From Chitinophagaceae bacterium (GTDB taxonomy: Bacteria > Bacteroidota > Bacteroidia > Chitinophagales > Chitinophagaceae): 47,634 bases of DNA. The stretch's first letter is position 1, and the number at the start of each line of letters is the position of its first letter. The stretch lies in assembly GCA_947379895.1 (NCBI GenBank), contig CANCPA010000008.1, positions 1 through 47,634 of the forward strand, in the 5' to 3' direction. The position numbers were made by a program, and so were the translations under genes. The notes beneath the pieces were generated by a model. It saw only the letters and a list, made by a program, of their open reading frames with translations, ran no database searches and was not told the DNA's origin. Positions 18,229 to 46,951 of the stretch are shown one piece after another.

Positions 18229-18611
18229 TAAAAAGGACGAAAGCAGATAAGGGGTATTACTCAAGTGTTTTTACCACAAGGGGCACAAGGTTTTGAACAA
18301 AGTAACACAAGAAACAGTATATATTTCAGGTACTTATCTGCCAATTATTTAAAAAGAAGTCCTTGTGTTCCTTGTTTTTTCTTCGTTGCCTTTGTGGCAA
18401 AACCTCCTGAGTAGTAAGTAAGTAAGTAAGTAAGGTAATGGTATTATAAGATTCGTTTTTTATTCTAAGATATATTAGGTGACGATTAATTATAAAATAC
18501 ACTACTAAAGTGTTGAGTTCGGAGCATGACATGTTTTATTTTTCATTTTAAAAATAAGTCTTTCTAATCACTCTAATCATTTTAGCTGTGGTATAAAACG
18601 CACTTAATTAC
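18229..18611. repeat. Intergenic CTTTGTG/CCTTGTG dispersed repeat in inverted orientation
   Basis: The gap between two convergent genes holds ACCACAAGGGGCACAAGG (18273-18290) and an inverted partner (18360-18404: CCTTGTGTTCCTTG, TTTGTGGCAAAACC). The right arm, including its AGTAGTAA tail, belongs to the same family as the two direct copies at 25675-25892. No gene is seen. Confidence 0.5.
18415..18434. repeat. TAAG tetranucleotide repeat, five copies
   Basis: Five perfect tandem TAAG units attached to the end of the dispersed repeat. Tracts of this type can vary by slippage; no gene overlaps it. Confidence 0.85.
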
Positions 18612-28070: not shown

Positions 28071-28829
28071 TTAACCCTTTTTCCTTACATCTAAATTATA
28101 GAAAATAAATACTCTAAAAGCGTGGTCTCTTTCATATTGGTATCCAGTTGATTTCTGTTGGTCAGAAATTATATAACCAACATCACAGTTGATTTGTTTT
28201 GAAAAAGTTTCTCTTAGCCCAATATAAGCACGGTTCTGATCGAATGTGTTATATACAATTGTTTTACCCATTTGTAGCATCACTTCATCCGACAAAACAA
28301 ATGAAGGAAAATAAAGCATTTTGGTAAGCGGAACAACGAACATTATCTGATAGCGAATCCTATTTGTAAAAATGAAATCTTGTGTTTTAGTATCTGCAAC
28401 TATCTTTTCTTGCCATCTCTCTTCATTTCGTAACCGGTTTGAAATGCTTACCCTACCAACTTTCGATGCAACTAATACTTGCTGATAAAGCCTATTTTCA
28501 TTTGCAATTGTATGCCATCCTATAGTTTTAGAAGGCGTCCATTGATGTGCATAACCCGCTTGTAATGTTACATCATTAGTAACCCAATAACTTATACCAG
28601 CTCTTACAATACTATTATAATCACTCTTGAAAAATTGGTTGCTACGGTAGTTTGCATCAGCTATTATTCCCCACTTATTACTAATTCTAAACGAAGAATT
28701 GACACCAATCCAAGTAAGCGATAGATTAGTTATACTTTTTTCTTGCTGTTGTGCTTGAAGTGTATTAACAATTAAAGAAAAGATTAAGGATACTAAAAGC
28801 AGGCGAGATTTGAAGAGTAAATTTATCAA
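28071..28829 (-). CDS. DUF2490 family outer-membrane-type protein
   Basis: A 252-aa protein with a signal peptide ending LQAQ, then alternating amphipathic strands with aromatic residues (WIGVNSSFRISNKWGIIADANYR, ISYWVTNDVTLQAGYAHQW, NRLRNEERW). This is the DUF2490 pattern, thought to form a small outer-membrane beta-barrel. It ends in an aromatic strand (FRVFIFYNLDV). Function is unknown for the family. It is separated from paralogue B by 469 bp and is probably its own unit. Confidence 0.75.
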   Translation of the reverse strand: MINLLFKSRLLLVSLIFSLIVNTLQAQQQEKSITNLSLTWIGVNSSFRISNKWGIIADANYRSNQFFKSDYNSIVRAGISYWVTNDVTLQAGYAHQWTPSKTIGWHTIANENRLYQQVLVASKVGRVSISNRLRNEERWQEKIVADTKTQDFIFTNRIRYQIMFVVPLTKMLYFPSFVLSDEVMLQMGKTIVYNTFDQNRAYIGLRETFSKQINCDVGYIISDQQKSTGYQYERDHAFRVFIFYNLDVRKKG

Positions 28830-29157: not shown

Positions 29158-29250
29158 AGAAACTTCAAAAATCAGAGTGGCAGATTGAGGCAGTAAATCT
29201 GATTTAGCTTATTTTCATATCTCTACTTTAAATTTTAATTAAAGTGACTT

Positions 29251-29700
29251 TCATAAAATAAAATAGCAAAAGCATTTAGGATAAGTCATGTTCTTAAAAT
29301 AAAAAGTCATATTCATCCACTTTAACTGCTTTGTAGGTTGCAACTCACTTTAATTGGATGCTTTGAGTCGGTTTCATAAAATAAAAAGGAATAAGCATTC
29401 ACTTTAAGTGCGTTGTAAGTATTAGCGCACTTAAAGTGAATGCTTTACGTCAATTTCACAAAATAAAAGTGAAAAAGTATCCAATTATACAGATTTGCAA
29501 CTTGCAAGTCACTTTAAGTGAATGCTTTTAATGAGTTACAGAAATTAAAAAGAAATAAGCATTCTCTTTAACTGCGTTGATACTCACAACGCAGTTAAAG
29601 AGAATGCTTTAGGTAAGTTAAAAGCTACAACGCACTTAAAGAGGATGCTTTTAATAAGTTACAACTTGCAACTCACCTAAAGTGGTTACTTATTATACTT
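29251..29700. repeat. Tandem hairpin array, about 82-bp period
   Basis: A-rich leaders resembling TTCATAAAATAAAAAG begin near 29290, 29372, 29454, 29535 and 29613. Each precedes a palindrome. Two units are perfect: 20-bp arms at 29393-29412 / 29426-29445 and 23-bp arms at 29557-29579 / 29587-29609. The arm sequences differ between these units at several positions, yet each change is matched in the partner arm. Other units are imperfect. The array lies 200 bp before the 318-aa gene. I know no named element with this layout. Confidence 0.7.
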
Positions 29701-29894
29701 TAGGATTTATTAAGTAGTTATTTTGGAATAAATAGGTCTTTATTATTTCGCAACCAAATACATGCACCTTCTTTTTCAATCTCGCGTAATTAGTGAATAA
29801 AAAAGCAAATGATTTTTTATTTTAAATTTAGAAACTCGACTTTTGTTTTCGTTACAATAGAAAGGTGATTATTTAATCCTCAAAATTTTATTTT

Positions 29895-30851
29895 ATGGGT
29901 ATGAATTGGTTACGATCAGACGATTTTTTCAATAATATAACAGATGGAAATTATCTTTTGTCTAAAAAAATATTTGATAGTTATGACTTAAAACTTCATT
30001 CAGGCATTTCCGACCCGGCAGTACAAACCTTATACACCGACAATCATATAATATGTAATGCATTCGATGCTGCATATAGTGTTTGGGATACGTTAAAGAG
30101 TACTAATAAAGGTTTGACGCACGAAGGGGCACTGTTGTTAGAACAATTGATGTCAACAAAAGCAAAAGCTTGGGATACTGCCATTCAACAAATTTATCCT
30201 CAAGATACCTCAAACTATATTAGCTTAATGCCTAATCACCGTATTCCTTTTCAAACAGGAACAGGATTAAGCAGGGTTTTAGCTATTGAAAATTTAGTGA
30301 CTGCTATTGGTTCAGATAATACACTTGCTGCTGTAAAGACCTCGGTTCAATCTTTTTTAACACTTCTATTGGCCGCCCGAACTAAACATACGAATCAATG
30401 GATTGCTATAGAAAAAGCATTATTTGTTTTAGAAAATACCCGGAAAAGTGCAGGAAGTTCAATGCTTTTGGGATTTGCTACATTATTAGGCATACATTAT
30501 CTTAATCCGAAGGAAATTGATGTATTTTTTCCTGTTGAATATTTAACACATAAAATACAGTACAGTTATCAAAGAACGCTTGTTGACCAATTACCTTCTT
30601 TTCTTTTCAAACGTAAAATGGAGACTGAAAAACAGACCATTGATACCATTAATAGTAGTGATTTCATAGTCAGGATTTATTTTACAAATGGATTGACAGA
30701 TAAACTTATTCTTGGAGAGTTATTTATTGATTTGCCTCCAAACTCAACCGGCAGCCATAATCCTCTCTTAATGAATTATTCCGATGAAAGAAGGCACTGC
30801 TATTTGATGAATATGGGAACGGGAACTGCACATGTTGAAGTAAATATTTAA
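29895..30851 (+). CDS. Protein of unknown function (318 aa)
   Basis: I do not recognise it. It lacks a signal peptide and membrane segments. Residues 1-200 look largely helical (EGALLLEQLMSTKAKAWDTAIQQIY, SFLTLLLAARTKHTNQWIAIEKAL); the C-terminal 80 residues look beta-rich (FIVRIYFTNGLTDKLILGELFIDLPPN). It is the only plus-strand gene in the right half of the window. It follows the hairpin array and is closed by an exceptionally long palindromic terminator. The plus orientation and cytoplasmic nature make it unlikely to belong to the secreted glycan genes. Confidence 0.6.
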   Translation: MGMNWLRSDDFFNNITDGNYLLSKKIFDSYDLKLHSGISDPAVQTLYTDNHIICNAFDAAYSVWDTLKSTNKGLTHEGALLLEQLMSTKAKAWDTAIQQIYPQDTSNYISLMPNHRIPFQTGTGLSRVLAIENLVTAIGSDNTLAAVKTSVQSFLTLLLAARTKHTNQWIAIEKALFVLENTRKSAGSSMLLGFATLLGIHYLNPKEIDVFFPVEYLTHKIQYSYQRTLVDQLPSFLFKRKMETEKQTIDTINSSDFIVRIYFTNGLTDKLILGELFIDLPPNSTGSHNPLLMNYSDERRHCYLMNMGTGTAHVEVNI

Positions 30852-30929: not shown

Positions 30930-32909
30930 CTAATTTCCATCCTCCTCTTTATTGTCTTTTTTGCCTTTTCCACCTTTCCTCTCTTTCTTGTCTTTCTTGT
31001 CTTTCTTTTCTTTTTTACCTTTATCACCTGTATTGCCTTCATCAGCACTGTCGCCTTTGCCATACTTAGTTCCTTTTGCATATCCCGAAAATGCCTTCAC
31101 TTCAGTAGGAGGACGTAAAGCAGGTAGTTCCTGTTCTCCACGATGTACTTCTATTAAACTAAAAACATCATCTTTATCATCTACGTTTACAATGGCTAAG
31201 TCAGAGCCTTTTTTTCCACCATATCTAAATACAGCATCTCTTAGGGTAACCACTTCATGATGCCATTTCTTGTCTCCTTTGCCAGTTACAGTCATGGCTG
31301 TTTTCATCGCTTTAGCTCCTGCATCATAATCTAGTTTCCATTTTGAGCCTTCAATACTATCGTACCATACAATCGTTATAGACATTACTTTAGGCTTTGT
31401 ATCTTGAGAGAATCCTTCATGTAGTTTAAAATACAAGGCATCTTTTCCAGTACTATGCTCAAACCCACGGGCAAACCTAGCATAAATGGGTGAGGTGTTT
31501 TTTATAGGGCCACCTATACGCCAAAGTGGAATCGAAGTGGCATCTGGTTCAATTTGGTAAAGTAATCGAGAATAGTTTTCAGGCCAAATTTCCCATCCTA
31601 CATCATTAAATCCAGCTTGATCTCCCCTTTGCCCTACTTGTCCTAATGCAAGAGCCTTCTTGTCTTCGTTTGCAGCACCATATTTGGCATATTCAGCACA
31701 GATTTTTTCCATTCGTTCCAAATTGCTGTGTGATGCCGCTCCAAATTTTGCCTCTGGATAAACTTTGGTATCAGCCGCATCTAAACCTTTATGTAAAGCA
31801 CAAAAAGCATCAGTAGCCGTTTTGGGATAAATTTGACCCGCATACTTATTAAAGAAATAGAAGGAGTAATCAAATCCCTGTTCTTTACTTACTTGCATAG
31901 CAATTTTACTTATATCCCAAACGCTCTGCCCTGCATTCAATGCATTAATTGCTCCCCAATAAAAATTTAAAGGGACATTTAATTGATACCAAGGCCTAGT
32001 CCAAGTTTGATCCATTTCTGAACGTCGGAATAACGAATACCCTTTTGGATCAATTAGATAAGGAAGAAAATTGCTTATAGCAGAACGCTCCCCGCTTAAA
32101 TGATGCCCACGAGAAAGTGCCCCATTCTTAATGCCAAAACCTTCTTTCAGCGTAGAAGTTGCCCAATTCCATAATTCATTTTGATTATTCTTAGTGTCTT
32201 CTTCTGGCGAAACACCATTAAATAGTAACCTTAATTTCAAGCCCGAATCGGAACTAAACAGTTTTGCATATTCTGAAAAGGTCTCTTTTCTAAATTGCCC
32301 CCAAGCCGCATCGTTAGGTTTTAATTTGTACTTAGGGTCAATAGCATCTCCTTTATAGGGACATTCATCTCCAGTACAACCTGTTTTCACTTGGATAAAT
32401 GCAATACGATTTTGCTTTTCTTTTGAATAGCCACTGATATGTTTGGCAATCGCGTTAAGGAACCTAAAATAGTAGGTCTTGTATTCGGAAGATAAATAGT
32501 AGGGGTAAAAGGGGAATTTATCTGCGTGTCGTTTGTCATCTGATACCACCTTAGGTACTCCTTTTTTATACACCCAATCAGGCGTCTTTGGTCCAGCCTC
32601 AAATGAAAAGTAAACAGATATATTATTTTTTGTTGCCCGCTCAATAGCTTGATCCATTGTACTCCAATCATACATCCCATCCGATTTTTCCACTTCATCC
32701 CAAGGGGCATCACAGGATGTTCCTCTCACATAGGGATACACTTTGGGATCCATAGCCTCCCCTCGATCCCATACCCCAAAAGAACTTGTTGATAAGGAAG
32801 ATTGGCCTAATGACAAATTGCAAACACCTATAAAAATAATTAGGAGGTATTTTTTTGTAATCCTAGATACATTAATTCTTCTTTTTTTCATTACCATTTT
32901 ATTTTTCAT
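30930..32909 (-). CDS. Putative TIM-barrel glycosidase, paralogue C, with Lys/Asp-rich tail
   Basis: A 659-aa exported member of the trio. It may start at 32909 or at the internal ATG 32891; both precede a signal peptide ending LSLGQ. Shared blocks are PWDEVEKSDGMYDWSTMDQAIE, TPDWVYKKGVPKV, TGCTGDECPYKGDAIDPKY, GFNDVGWEIWP, ARFARGFEHSTGKDALYFKLHEGF and DVFSLIEV. The catalytic RGE-type segment reads HHLSGERS, so the acid position may differ. After the common end, about 60 extra residues follow, finishing in a highly charged Lys/Asp/Glu/Gly stretch (KKEKKDKKDKKERKGGKGKK). A candidate operator lies 72 bp upstream. Glycosidase function is inferred. Confidence 0.55.
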   Translation of the reverse strand: MKNKMVMKKRRINVSRITKKYLLIIFIGVCNLSLGQSSLSTSSFGVWDRGEAMDPKVYPYVRGTSCDAPWDEVEKSDGMYDWSTMDQAIERATKNNISVYFSFEAGPKTPDWVYKKGVPKVVSDDKRHADKFPFYPYYLSSEYKTYYFRFLNAIAKHISGYSKEKQNRIAFIQVKTGCTGDECPYKGDAIDPKYKLKPNDAAWGQFRKETFSEYAKLFSSDSGLKLRLLFNGVSPEEDTKNNQNELWNWATSTLKEGFGIKNGALSRGHHLSGERSAISNFLPYLIDPKGYSLFRRSEMDQTWTRPWYQLNVPLNFYWGAINALNAGQSVWDISKIAMQVSKEQGFDYSFYFFNKYAGQIYPKTATDAFCALHKGLDAADTKVYPEAKFGAASHSNLERMEKICAEYAKYGAANEDKKALALGQVGQRGDQAGFNDVGWEIWPENYSRLLYQIEPDATSIPLWRIGGPIKNTSPIYARFARGFEHSTGKDALYFKLHEGFSQDTKPKVMSITIVWYDSIEGSKWKLDYDAGAKAMKTAMTVTGKGDKKWHHEVVTLRDAVFRYGGKKGSDLAIVNVDDKDDVFSLIEVHRGEQELPALRPPTEVKAFSGYAKGTKYGKGDSADEGNTGDKGKKEKKDKKDKKERKGGKGKKDNKEEDGN

Positions 32910-34716: not shown

Positions 34717-36186
34717 TTAATTCTTTTCCTTCTTATCCTTTTTATCTTTTTTGTCTTTATTTTTCTTTTTGTCTACTTTGTCATTACCTACGCTGTCACT
34801 TAAAGGATCATCATCTTCCTTAAATACTTTAGCTTGGCTTACGAAGTAATCGGGTCGTGGTCCCTCAAATACTTTTAGCGCTGCCTCCAACTTTACTTTA
34901 GCGGCTTTTTCTTTGCTGTTTAATTCGGTTTCAGTTAGTGGCGTATTCTCATTATCATCCTTTTGTACATTAAAAAACTTACCATCCGTGTAAAGCTTAA
35001 AGTTGGCATCGTGTACAAACTCGGCTTTGGCAATGGCACCACCACTTGGATTATACCAAGAATATAGCCATTCACGAGGACTACCTTTTTCACCCATTAA
35101 CTGTGGGAGAAAACTACGACCGTCAATTTTCAAATCTGCTGGAATTTTTACACCCGCAGCTTCGCATAGAGTGGGTAAAAAATCTGTTGCTGAAATCAAG
35201 TCAGCAGAAATTTTCCCACTAGCAAAATGACTAGGCCAAGTACCAATCAAAGGCACATGCGTACCCCATTCAGTAGTAGTTCCCTTGCCACCTTTCACAT
35301 CTTGCCCCTTAAATCTTGCTGGCATTCCTTTAGCAGTTCCATTGTCGCCAAGAATAAGCACCATCGTACTCTCACGTAATTTTAACTCATCTAGCTTGGC
35401 TATTAGTTTGCCAATCAGTTTATCCGTGTAAGCTGTCATATCGGAAAAATGACCACTAGTTCCTTTTTTACCCTTTCCATTTTGTATTTCCAAATAGTCC
35501 GGACAATCAGGCGTGGCATCAAAGGGTGAGTGAGTAAGCATCATTGGATAGTAAAGAAAAAATGTTGAATCTTTTTTACGTGTAATGAAATCAAGCGCAT
35601 AATCACTAATAATATCAGGTCCATAAGCATCTTTTGGGCTTTCAAATGGTTTACCGTTCATTTCAATTAATGGGTTTTTATAGCGACTGCCTTTACTTTT
35701 CAAATGCCAAAGTGCATATTCATCAAACCCAAAATGACTTGGATTATCATAGCTTTTTCCTAATTGCCATTTGCCTGTAACACAGGTAGTATAACCTGCA
35801 TTCTTTAATAGATTACCAAAAGTCTTTTGCGTTGTATCTAAACTACCAAAGTTTGTATAGTTTCTACGATTGCTCATACCTGTCATCAACTCAACCCTTG
35901 TTGGTGTACAAAGTGGCTGCACATGACACTCTTCAAAACGCACACCCTTTGCGGCAAGCTGATCCATTATAGGCGTCTTATAACTTTCACCACCATTTGC
36001 TGTAACATTCTCATAACCAAAATCATCAATCAGTATAAGTACGATATTGGGTTTTACAAAGGATTTTGAAGTTTTATTGACTGGATTTTTAGTCTTGCTT
36101 TTCTGTGAGAATACGAAACAGGGTACAATCACTAAAGCAAGAAGTGTCAATAAATAATTGCAACTTTTCATCTCTTTACTACTCAT
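34717..36186 (-). CDS. S1-family sulfatase, CTPTR active site, Lys/Asp-rich tail
   Basis: 489 aa, exported (signal ending CFVFSQ; internal ATG at 36171 is the likelier start). Core motifs are LILIDDFGYENVTANGG, Cys93 in PLCTPTRVELMTG (C-x-P-T-R variant), CVTGKWQLG, MVLILGDNGTAKG and the GTHVPLIGTWP substrate-pocket region. It is shorter than the other four and lacks their WxLYDL block, having FKLYTDGKFFNVQKD. After residue about 460 it ends in a charged tail (DKKKNKDKKDKKDKKEKN) like those of paralogue C and two other sulfatases. Middle gene of the sulfatase operon, 49 bp after the first. Confidence 0.9.
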   Translation of the reverse strand: MSSKEMKSCNYLLTLLALVIVPCFVFSQKSKTKNPVNKTSKSFVKPNIVLILIDDFGYENVTANGGESYKTPIMDQLAAKGVRFEECHVQPLCTPTRVELMTGMSNRRNYTNFGSLDTTQKTFGNLLKNAGYTTCVTGKWQLGKSYDNPSHFGFDEYALWHLKSKGSRYKNPLIEMNGKPFESPKDAYGPDIISDYALDFITRKKDSTFFLYYPMMLTHSPFDATPDCPDYLEIQNGKGKKGTSGHFSDMTAYTDKLIGKLIAKLDELKLRESTMVLILGDNGTAKGMPARFKGQDVKGGKGTTTEWGTHVPLIGTWPSHFASGKISADLISATDFLPTLCEAAGVKIPADLKIDGRSFLPQLMGEKGSPREWLYSWYNPSGGAIAKAEFVHDANFKLYTDGKFFNVQKDDNENTPLTETELNSKEKAAKVKLEAALKVFEGPRPDYFVSQAKVFKEDDDPLSDSVGNDKVDKKKNKDKKDKKDKKEKN

Positions 36187-36235: not shown

Positions 36236-37903
36236 TTATTCCTCTATTTCATCATTCTTTTCCTTTTTATCTTTCTTGTTCTTTTTATCTCTCTTCTCCG
36301 ATTTGTCTTTCTTTCCATTACCATCCCATTCGTTCCCTGTGCAATCTTTCCACCATGCTTGCCATTGAGTATCTAGTTTTTGTACTAATTCTGGTTTTTG
36401 GTCTGCCAAGTTGTGCGTCTCCGTCCTATCAGTAGCCATGTCATATAGTTCCCACGTTTTGCTATCTCTCACCATTTTCCATTGCCCATCAATAACAGCA
36501 GAACCATTCGAAAACTGAAAAAATAGGGGTTTAGTACGTTCAATGGGCAGTGCCTTAAAAGCAGGCAACAAACTGATACCATCCATTGGTTGAATATTGG
36601 TTTCTTTAGACTTGCCGGGATATTTAGCACCTGTGATTTCTGCTAGTGTAGGCATGATGTCTATTAGATGTGCAGGTACACGATTCCAGTCTGTTTGTGG
36701 TTTAATATTGGCCGGCCATTGTACAATAAAGGGTGTACCAATGCCCCCTTCAAAGCTATCTTGCTTCCATTTTCGCAAAGGTGTATTACTTACGGTAGCC
36801 CATTTTTGTCCGTAGGTAATATACGTTGCCACACTGCCCATTGGTGCTGTAGAATCTACATTTGCTACTTTGGGTGTCTCCGCACAACCACCATTATCCG
36901 ACAAGAACATAATAATGGTATTATCTAATTTGCCTTGTTCCTTTAATTTATTAACCAAACGCCCCACGTTTTGATCTACTCTATCCACCATGGCAGCGTA
37001 GATTTCCATTTTCATAGCTTCTGTACGAAGTTCTTCTGCCGAAAGGGGTGTATCAATTACCTTTTTCCTCTTTTTGCCTTCTGTTGGTGGGAGAGGGGCT
37101 GTTTTAGTATCCACCAATCCAAGTTGAATTTGTCGCTTATAACGAGCCTCTCTTACCGCATCATACCCCCCGTCATATACGCCTTTGTATTTGGCAATAT
37201 CATCCGGCCATGCTTGTAAAGGATAGTGTGGAGCGGTGTATGCCATATATAGCAAAAATGGTTTCTTGTCCTTTTTTGATGCATCAAGCCATTCAAGTGC
37301 CTTATCCGTAAAGCCATCTGTGTCGTATTTTACCGTTTGCCAAGGAGTTACTTTTTTTAAATCATCCATCCACGGCTTAACCTTAGTATTGTCTTTTGCT
37401 TTACCATCAGGGCTAGGTTGACCAGGAATCTCCACACTCCATGGGTTAAAGTGGTTTTCTGCACCACCTATCATACCATAATAATGATCAAACCCTCGTG
37501 TAACAGGATTAAATTTAGAGTGGTGCTTACCCGACCACCAAGTATTGTAACCTGCCGGTTGAAGTACCTCGCCCAAAGTTGCAGTATGCGAAAAATTAGC
37601 CACTTCGGTTCGTTGAAAATATACACCCGTTACTAAACTTGCTCTTGAAGGAAAACACTTAGCACAGTTGTGCATTTGAGAAAACTTAACACCGTTAGCA
37701 GCAAGACGATCAATATTTGGGGTATGAATCTCACTTCCATAACACCCTAGATCGGAATAACCCATGTCGTCAACAAGTATAATAACAATATTTGGTTTTG
37801 CTGCTGTCTTTGTACTTTGGGCAAATATCGCCATTGGAAAAATGACCAATACCACTACGAGTGTGGCAATTATTTTTGAGATACTCATAATTACTATTTT
37901 CAT
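36236..37903 (-). CDS. S1-family sulfatase, CFPSR active site, Lys/Asp-rich tail
   Basis: 555 aa, exported (signal ending AIFAQ; the ATG at 37888 is an alternative start). Motifs are ILVDDMGYSDLGCYGSE, Cys83 in CAKCFPSRASLVTG (canonical C-x-P-S-R), TWWSGKHHSKFNP, MFLSDNGGCAET, and WKMVRDSKTWELYDMATDRTE. The catalytic domain ends WWKDCTGNEW, as in the 33095 sulfatase, showing recent common ancestry; here a tail follows (KKDKSEKRDKKNKKDKKEKN). First gene of the three-sulfatase operon, with a candidate operator 72 bp upstream. Confidence 0.9.
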   Translation of the reverse strand: MKIVIMSISKIIATLVVVLVIFPMAIFAQSTKTAAKPNIVIILVDDMGYSDLGCYGSEIHTPNIDRLAANGVKFSQMHNCAKCFPSRASLVTGVYFQRTEVANFSHTATLGEVLQPAGYNTWWSGKHHSKFNPVTRGFDHYYGMIGGAENHFNPWSVEIPGQPSPDGKAKDNTKVKPWMDDLKKVTPWQTVKYDTDGFTDKALEWLDASKKDKKPFLLYMAYTAPHYPLQAWPDDIAKYKGVYDGGYDAVREARYKRQIQLGLVDTKTAPLPPTEGKKRKKVIDTPLSAEELRTEAMKMEIYAAMVDRVDQNVGRLVNKLKEQGKLDNTIIMFLSDNGGCAETPKVANVDSTAPMGSVATYITYGQKWATVSNTPLRKWKQDSFEGGIGTPFIVQWPANIKPQTDWNRVPAHLIDIMPTLAEITGAKYPGKSKETNIQPMDGISLLPAFKALPIERTKPLFFQFSNGSAVIDGQWKMVRDSKTWELYDMATDRTETHNLADQKPELVQKLDTQWQAWWKDCTGNEWDGNGKKDKSEKRDKKNKKDKKEKNDEIEE

Positions 37904-46546: not shown

Positions 46547-46951
46547 TTAATTCTCTTTATCCTCTTTTTTCTCTTTTTCTTTACCACCATTTTTGTTTTT
46601 CATTTTTTCTTTCCTTTCTTCTACCCAAGTATCAAACTTTGTTTTTTGCTCATCTGTCAAAATAGCTTTGATAGATGCACTTGCAGCTTCATTTACAGCC
46701 TTTGCTTCTTTCTTGCCTGCCTTTTTATCTCCATCAGTCGCTTTTGCTTTGATAGAATCTAACTTTTTGACACTTTCCAACTGTATCAATTGAATTTTTG
46801 ACGATTGATCTGCAGTTAAAGAAAGTTCTTTACTTAATTCTTTGACAAACTGTTCTGCACGCTGTTGAGCGTTTTTCTTAGGACTTCCATCTTGAGCGAA
46901 CACAGACATTGTACTCATTACTACTGCAAAAACTAAAATTACCTTTTTCAT
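46547..46951 (-). CDS. Small Spy/CpxP-like (LTxxQ) periplasmic protein with charged tail
   Basis: 134 aa with a signal peptide ending SVFAQ, then a helical protein with two LTxxQ-type motifs (LSLTADQSSKIQLI about 45-58, ILTDEQKTKFDTW about 97-109), the hallmark of Spy/CpxP-like periplasmic chaperones common in Bacteroidota. The central and C-terminal parts are rich in Lys, Asp and Glu, ending KNKNGGKEKEKKEDKEN, similar to the tails on four nearby enzymes. Monocistronic, with its own terminator. Possible role: periplasmic stress or folding of the exported enzymes (inference). Confidence 0.75.
   Translation of the reverse strand: MKKVILVFAVVMSTMSVFAQDGSPKKNAQQRAEQFVKELSKELSLTADQSSKIQLIQLESVKKLDSIKAKATDGDKKAGKKEAKAVNEAASASIKAILTDEQKTKFDTWVEERKEKMKNKNGGKEKEKKEDKEN

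Follow-up and report, generated by a model that had tools for sequence, protein, structure and literature searches.

Tandem arrays of 41/42-bp, often dyad-symmetric units upstream of an orphan protein gene family in Chitinophagaceae

Structure and context of the array

The window analyzed here, i.e., the whole stretch of 47,634 nucleotides from a Chitinophagaceae bacterium (assembly GCA_947379895.1, contig CANCPA010000008.1), harbors a tandem array at positions 29249-29699. Direct reading and a repeat search revealed that it is built from half-units of 41 bp, where A comprises an A-rich leader and the left arm of a hairpin and B the right arm; the halves succeed one another as A, AB, AB, AB, AB, B, B (Table 1). 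An earlier note, based on the sequence alone, had described five A-rich leaders at a near-regular spacing of 81-82 bp; the five leaders are present (starting at 29249, 29290, 29372, 29454, and 29536), but the first step is 41 bp and the other three are 82 bp. The two perfect palindromes with arms of 20 and 23 bp described in the same note were both located, in U2 and U4, respectively. Between the two units, the arm sequences diverge at two sites (A/T and G/C), each difference being matched in the opposite arm, as had been claimed. Moreover, the left arm of U3 is similar to the reverse complement of the right arm of U1. The folding of the array stretch is far stronger than that of dinucleotide shuffles (z of -12.4 as RNA and -11.7 as DNA), and the array is confirmed to be real, far beyond chance. 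Rfam covariance models at gathering score retrieved no match in the window.

The array lies, as previously noted, between two divergent genes and about 200 bp (precisely 195 bp, from its 3' end to the gene start) before the gene for a 318-residue protein; the neighbor on the opposite strand codes for a DUF2490 protein. An A/T-rich dyad located in the gap between array and gene is also found upstream of the orthologue in G009 and of a paralogue on contig C29 of G000.

As for the rest of the window, the stretches 30930-31020, 34717-34790, 36236-36320, and 46547-46620 encode similar lysine/aspartate-rich protein tails (DKKDKKEK-type), partly coded by short tandem repeats. Genes for sulfatases and GH42-like hydrolases, most of which share the same strand, form a cluster from 20807 to 43875 that is interrupted by the array and the orphan gene; the cluster looks like a region for the utilization of sulfated polysaccharides.

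Table 1. Coordinates of the array, its flanking features, and other arrays mentioned in the text (window positions unless a locus is given).
Feature	Position	Strand	Remark
Single left half-unit A (A-rich leader and left arm), array start	29249..29289	+	41-bp layout
82-bp unit U1 (A+B), imperfect hairpin	29290..29371	+	16/24 pairs
82-bp unit U2, perfect 20-bp arms	29372..29453	+	arms 29393-29412 / 29426-29445
82-bp unit U3, imperfect hairpin	29454..29535	+	17/24 pairs
82-bp unit U4, perfect 23-bp arms	29536..29617	+	arms 29557-29579 / 29587-29609
Two right half-units B, 41 bp each	29618..29699	+	second from 29659
Array-end flank	29700..29748	+	common with the non-orthologous G009:C528 array (79.5%, alignment 29666-29748)
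A/T-rich dyad	29796..29821	+	array-gene gap
Divergent neighbor gene, DUF2490	28071..28829	-	not considered part of the unit
318-aa orphan protein gene	29895..30851	+	~320-aa Chitinophagaceae family, without known domain
42-bp arrays of G007 and G001	L111:1975-2189, L112:2246-2542, L113:2205-2309, L115:2293-2545, L116:2053-2268
proC-dut spacer arrays	L135:1052-1206; L256, L254, L255, L259		downstream of proC

Relatives of the array

A blastn search retrieved the array sequence from one site of its own genome and array-like sequences from four contigs of a genome of the same genus, the Chitinophagaceae MAG JR-MC-G-240519-18 (G009 hereinafter; 67% complete). All the G009 arrays share the 41-bp modular plan, each being homogenized to its own sequence. 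The array on contig C60 is located upstream of an orthologue (83% identical) of the 318-residue gene; at this orthologous site the B-B end of the window array is kept, and the array body aligns to that of the window with its direction inverted with respect to the gene, which would be easier for a DNA element than for a strand-specific RNA. The arrays on C239 and C367 open with an A-only half, as in the window, and both adjoin a pdxA-like start; they may derive from two related strains. The fourth, on C528, occupies a different location and shares with the window a segment of about 80 bp that spans the end of the array and its flank. In addition, an inverted-repeat-rich stretch of the window (18255-18362), downstream of a gene for 964 residues, is 71% similar to a stretch beside the C528 array.

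The earlier note had proposed a search of related genomes with a covariance model of the units; this retrieved strong copies only from G000 and G009, together with weakly similar 42-bp arrays from G007 and G001. The latter (CACTTAAAA...TTTTAAGTGC...TTGTTCAACAC) occur at five sites (Table 1), and the one on contig C113 of G007, the only one whose neighbors were read, is not adjacent to a member of the orphan gene family. Probing plasmid and phage DNA with the array, and viral contigs with the array pattern, did not retrieve any match; the sole pattern match from outside the Chitinophagaceae (L080) is located where a malate dehydrogenase gene ends and is attributed to chance.

The orphan protein family

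The 318-residue protein has no significant match in Pfam, NCBIfam (at cut-off), PADLOC, or PHROG. It belongs to a paralogous family (median length 319 residues) that is present in 11 out of 13 genomes of the genus and in four further genera of Chitinophagaceae, hence in at least five; one genome from another family contributed two relatives that are distant and partial. The family profile did not retrieve any relative among PDB sequences; probing Pfam with 15 members gave only three weak matches, each from a single member and none of the ToxN type; and viral contigs searched with the window protein yielded no match. A structure prediction for the window protein from two sequences gave no reliable model (mean pLDDT of 33). 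Across the family, isoelectric points vary between about 6 and 9.4, which does not point to a general DNA-binding signature. The genes flanking the family members include no constant partner; one large cluster of flanking genes was discarded, as it consists of frames read through the arrays themselves.

Association between array and gene

With a TRF score cut-off of 100, a 41/42-bp tandem array was found upstream of 70 of the 82 testable family loci (42 bp in 43 of them, 41 bp in 27), some of which are orthologues in related species, so that the 70 arrays are not all independent. Twelve loci harbor no such array, and other periods between 24 and 65 bp were found upstream of family genes in two cases only. 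The two distant partial relatives, a pseudogene, and a long fused frame are counted among the 82 loci but not in the set of 78 loci. The median number of copies is 5.5 per locus, and the 3' end of the array is typically some 190 bp away from the start codon, a distance reduced to about 50-100 bp in one subclade. Dyad symmetry of the unit (P<0.05 against shuffles) was observed for 31 of 71 arrays. Draft assemblies split into hundreds of contigs make up many of the genomes.

The association was compared with two kinds of controls. At the same loci, the array is upstream in 69 out of 78 cases and downstream in 0 out of 51. When control genes were drawn from two genomes, arrays were found upstream of 23 of the 27 family genes versus 22 of the 459 control genes (about 5%), and those of the 41-bp type upstream of nine of the 27 versus none of the 459. 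The association was also observed in other genera.

Inheritance of unit length and turnover of unit sequence

The distribution of unit length on the protein tree requires 10 changes, whereas 200 shuffles gave a mean of 21.4 and a minimum of 16. Of the protein pairs, 87-91% of those sharing 60-100% identity have equal unit lengths; for the same pairs, the median best identity between units is 0.49-0.54 against a background of 0.44, the comparison being limited to loci with a consensus unit of 42 bp or less. Even at a protein identity of 80-90%, the unit sequences are mostly unrelated. These data show that the unit length passes down with the gene and the unit sequence does not; this combination, in turn, suggests an undescribed genetic system made of two parts.

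Renewal of the hairpin arms

In 15 AB units, 83% of the stem cells are paired, and both sides have changed at eight out of 22 stem pairs, with a covariation above that of shuffles and of slid controls. The earlier note had ascribed the compensated changes to either selection or a copying mechanism maintaining pairing. In the C60 array, all seven stem differences of unit c from its neighbor b fall in the right arm, and each restores a pair with the left arm, which is identical in both units; seven pair-restoring changes confined to one arm are best read as the copying, in one event, of the reverse complement of the left arm. Conversely, mismatches are common (the column pair 37/59 is unpaired in eight out of 15 units), and the high number of mismatched units argues against a tight selection on RNA pairing. 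Among the mispairs, G-T (76) exceeds A-C (58) weakly and non-significantly, so that there is no clear RNA strand bias. The copying part of the earlier claim is thus well supported, and selection for RNA pairing specifically is not: template switching between the arms explains the compensated changes better than stepwise RNA selection does. A one-event copy of this kind corresponds to the template-switch model that Monttinen and Loytynoja put forward (PMC8794818), and the copying of arms is an established mutational process. Compensatory changes in repeats, therefore, need not signal RNA selection, and the 70 loci are available for studying the renewal of hairpin arms by template switching.

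Repeat background of these genomes

The repeat statistics are based on sampled stretches, about 400 kb for each of G000 and G007 and 200 kb for each of G022 and G034. In the genus, intergenic DNA contains abundant tandem arrays, whose periods are 7, 14, 21, 42, 63, and 84 bp, and shows a strong autocorrelation at multiples of 21; in the two sampled genomes of the same family, periods are mainly 7, 14, and 21. Repeats whose period is a multiple of 21, and also 7 or 14, abound in the samples from G000 and G007 (L123-L162), and most of them have at least one gene downstream. In five species of the genus, arrays occupy the spacer that separates proC from a dUTPase-like gene (dut); their periods are 63, 84, 42, 42, and 21, and they all differ in sequence. 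This spacer and the background of periods imply that position and period can persist without sequence in the lineage generally. Within the samples, no arrays of the 41-bp type were found apart from those of the orphan gene family and the G009 arrays akin to that of the window.

A possible two-part locus

To account for the association, the strict unit length and its inheritance, the turnover of the sequence, and the block-wise renewal of the arms described above, we tentatively propose, rating it at not quite an even chance, a locus in two parts: a length-phased array of tandem, often dyad-symmetric 41/42-bp units, placed upstream of the promoter, followed by the gene for the ~320-residue protein. 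What would be maintained is the period, which corresponds to about four helical turns, and not the sequence; from this we infer that the array might act in cis at the DNA level, with bends, hairpins, or protein sites stacked in the same phase upstream of the promoter of the gene. The twelve loci without such an array and the spread of isoelectric points in the family count against the model. Bacteroidota-type promoter-like motifs are visible, by eye, about 60 bp before the start codon. The copy number would be altered by tandem duplication, and template switching between the arms of a unit would keep them complementary during a fast sequence drift. It is possible, though we lean somewhat against it, that this represents a previously undescribed system, in which an orphan protein family is accompanied by an adjacent array recognized by unit length and not by sequence, with palindromes renewed by arm copying. 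If so, it would be a genetic arrangement of a new kind and would offer a natural way of testing whether selection can act on DNA geometry alone.

The model has to be weighed against a neutral minisatellite, in which an ancestral 42-bp array upstream of the ancestral gene was passed on with each gene duplication, each array being homogenized by slippage and template switching, and the period persisted by inertia without any function; indeed, an old neutral array under concerted evolution would likewise retain its period while its sequence is lost. The commonness of intergenic arrays with periods of 7 to 84 bp, the proC-dut spacer, and the fact that arm copying is an established mutational process speak for this explanation. 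The persistence of period without sequence in the background thus cuts both ways: it supports a geometric role and yet is the best argument for the neutral rival. Nevertheless, tandem arrays are generally prone to deletion, and their retention upstream of 69 of the 78 family genes, as against about 5% of the controls, is not easily explained by inertia; moreover, the 41-bp type was seen upstream of none of the 459 control genes. We consider the neutral origin rather unlikely.

Comparison with known systems

The statement of the earlier note that the array fits no element type holds, and the association with a gene family lay outside its view; in the open-access literature, no description of such an array-gene arrangement was found. 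A CRISPR array does not fit, since the entire 82-bp unit is repetitive and there are no unique spacers; in the comparison with integron attC sites, no gene cassettes were observed between the units in the window.

It is improbable that the two-part arrangement represents a type III toxin-antitoxin-like system, with the repeats transcribed into an RNA of 41/42-nt hairpins inhibiting the downstream protein. The layout recalls that of ToxIN, CptIN, and TenpIN, in which tandem repeats of about 40 nt, differing between loci, lie directly upstream of one protein gene; tandem repeats occur immediately upstream at 70 of the 82 loci, and the units often fold. However, sequence searches of the ~320-residue family revealed no ToxN-like or other domain, nor, at the sequence level, a ToxN/AbiQ endoribonuclease fold, and the repeat sequence does not track the protein, proteins sharing 80-90% identity having mostly unrelated repeats. 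Here, a gap of usually about 190 bp separates the array from the start codon, and in the window the plus strand of this gap contains no terminator-like site; furthermore, no phage or plasmid members were found, and the G-T over A-C bias (76:58) is not significant.

A mobile repeat of the BIME/REPIN or MITE type, spread by a transposase, is very unlikely. Like BIMEs, REPs, and REPINs (PMC2817692), the array is intergenic and homogenized internally, and its palindromic A and B halves alternate in orientation at regular 41-bp steps. The four G009 contigs, one of which shares array end and flank with the window, and the five matches to Y1 transposases in the genome of the window would also fit; but the array, rather than being a palindrome dispersed in many copies, occupies a single place in its own genome, and no Y1 match was found in G009 (67% complete), the holder of most copies. 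Moreover, it is tied to one gene family, with a fixed 41/42-bp period and a locus-specific sequence, and the arrays at different family genes are unrelated in sequence.

Least credible of all are selected RNA hairpins, in a regulatory RNA or an mRNA leader, kept by stepwise compensatory change: they would account for the both-sided changes at eight of the 22 stem pairs and for the covariation above both controls, but the same arrays contain many broken pairs, and changes arrive as whole-arm blocks.

The correction of quasipalindromes by template switching (PMC8794818; PMC7202029) shares with the array the multi-base changes that make the arms exact complements; it explains why the arms match, not why the array exists. 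Lastly, heptamer direct repeats (PMC4679880) are likewise intergenic tandem repeats of bacteria, some of them in Bacteroidetes, and period 7 and its multiples are common elsewhere in the genus, whereas the window-type units measure 41/42 bp, are often dyad-symmetric, and are linked to one gene family.
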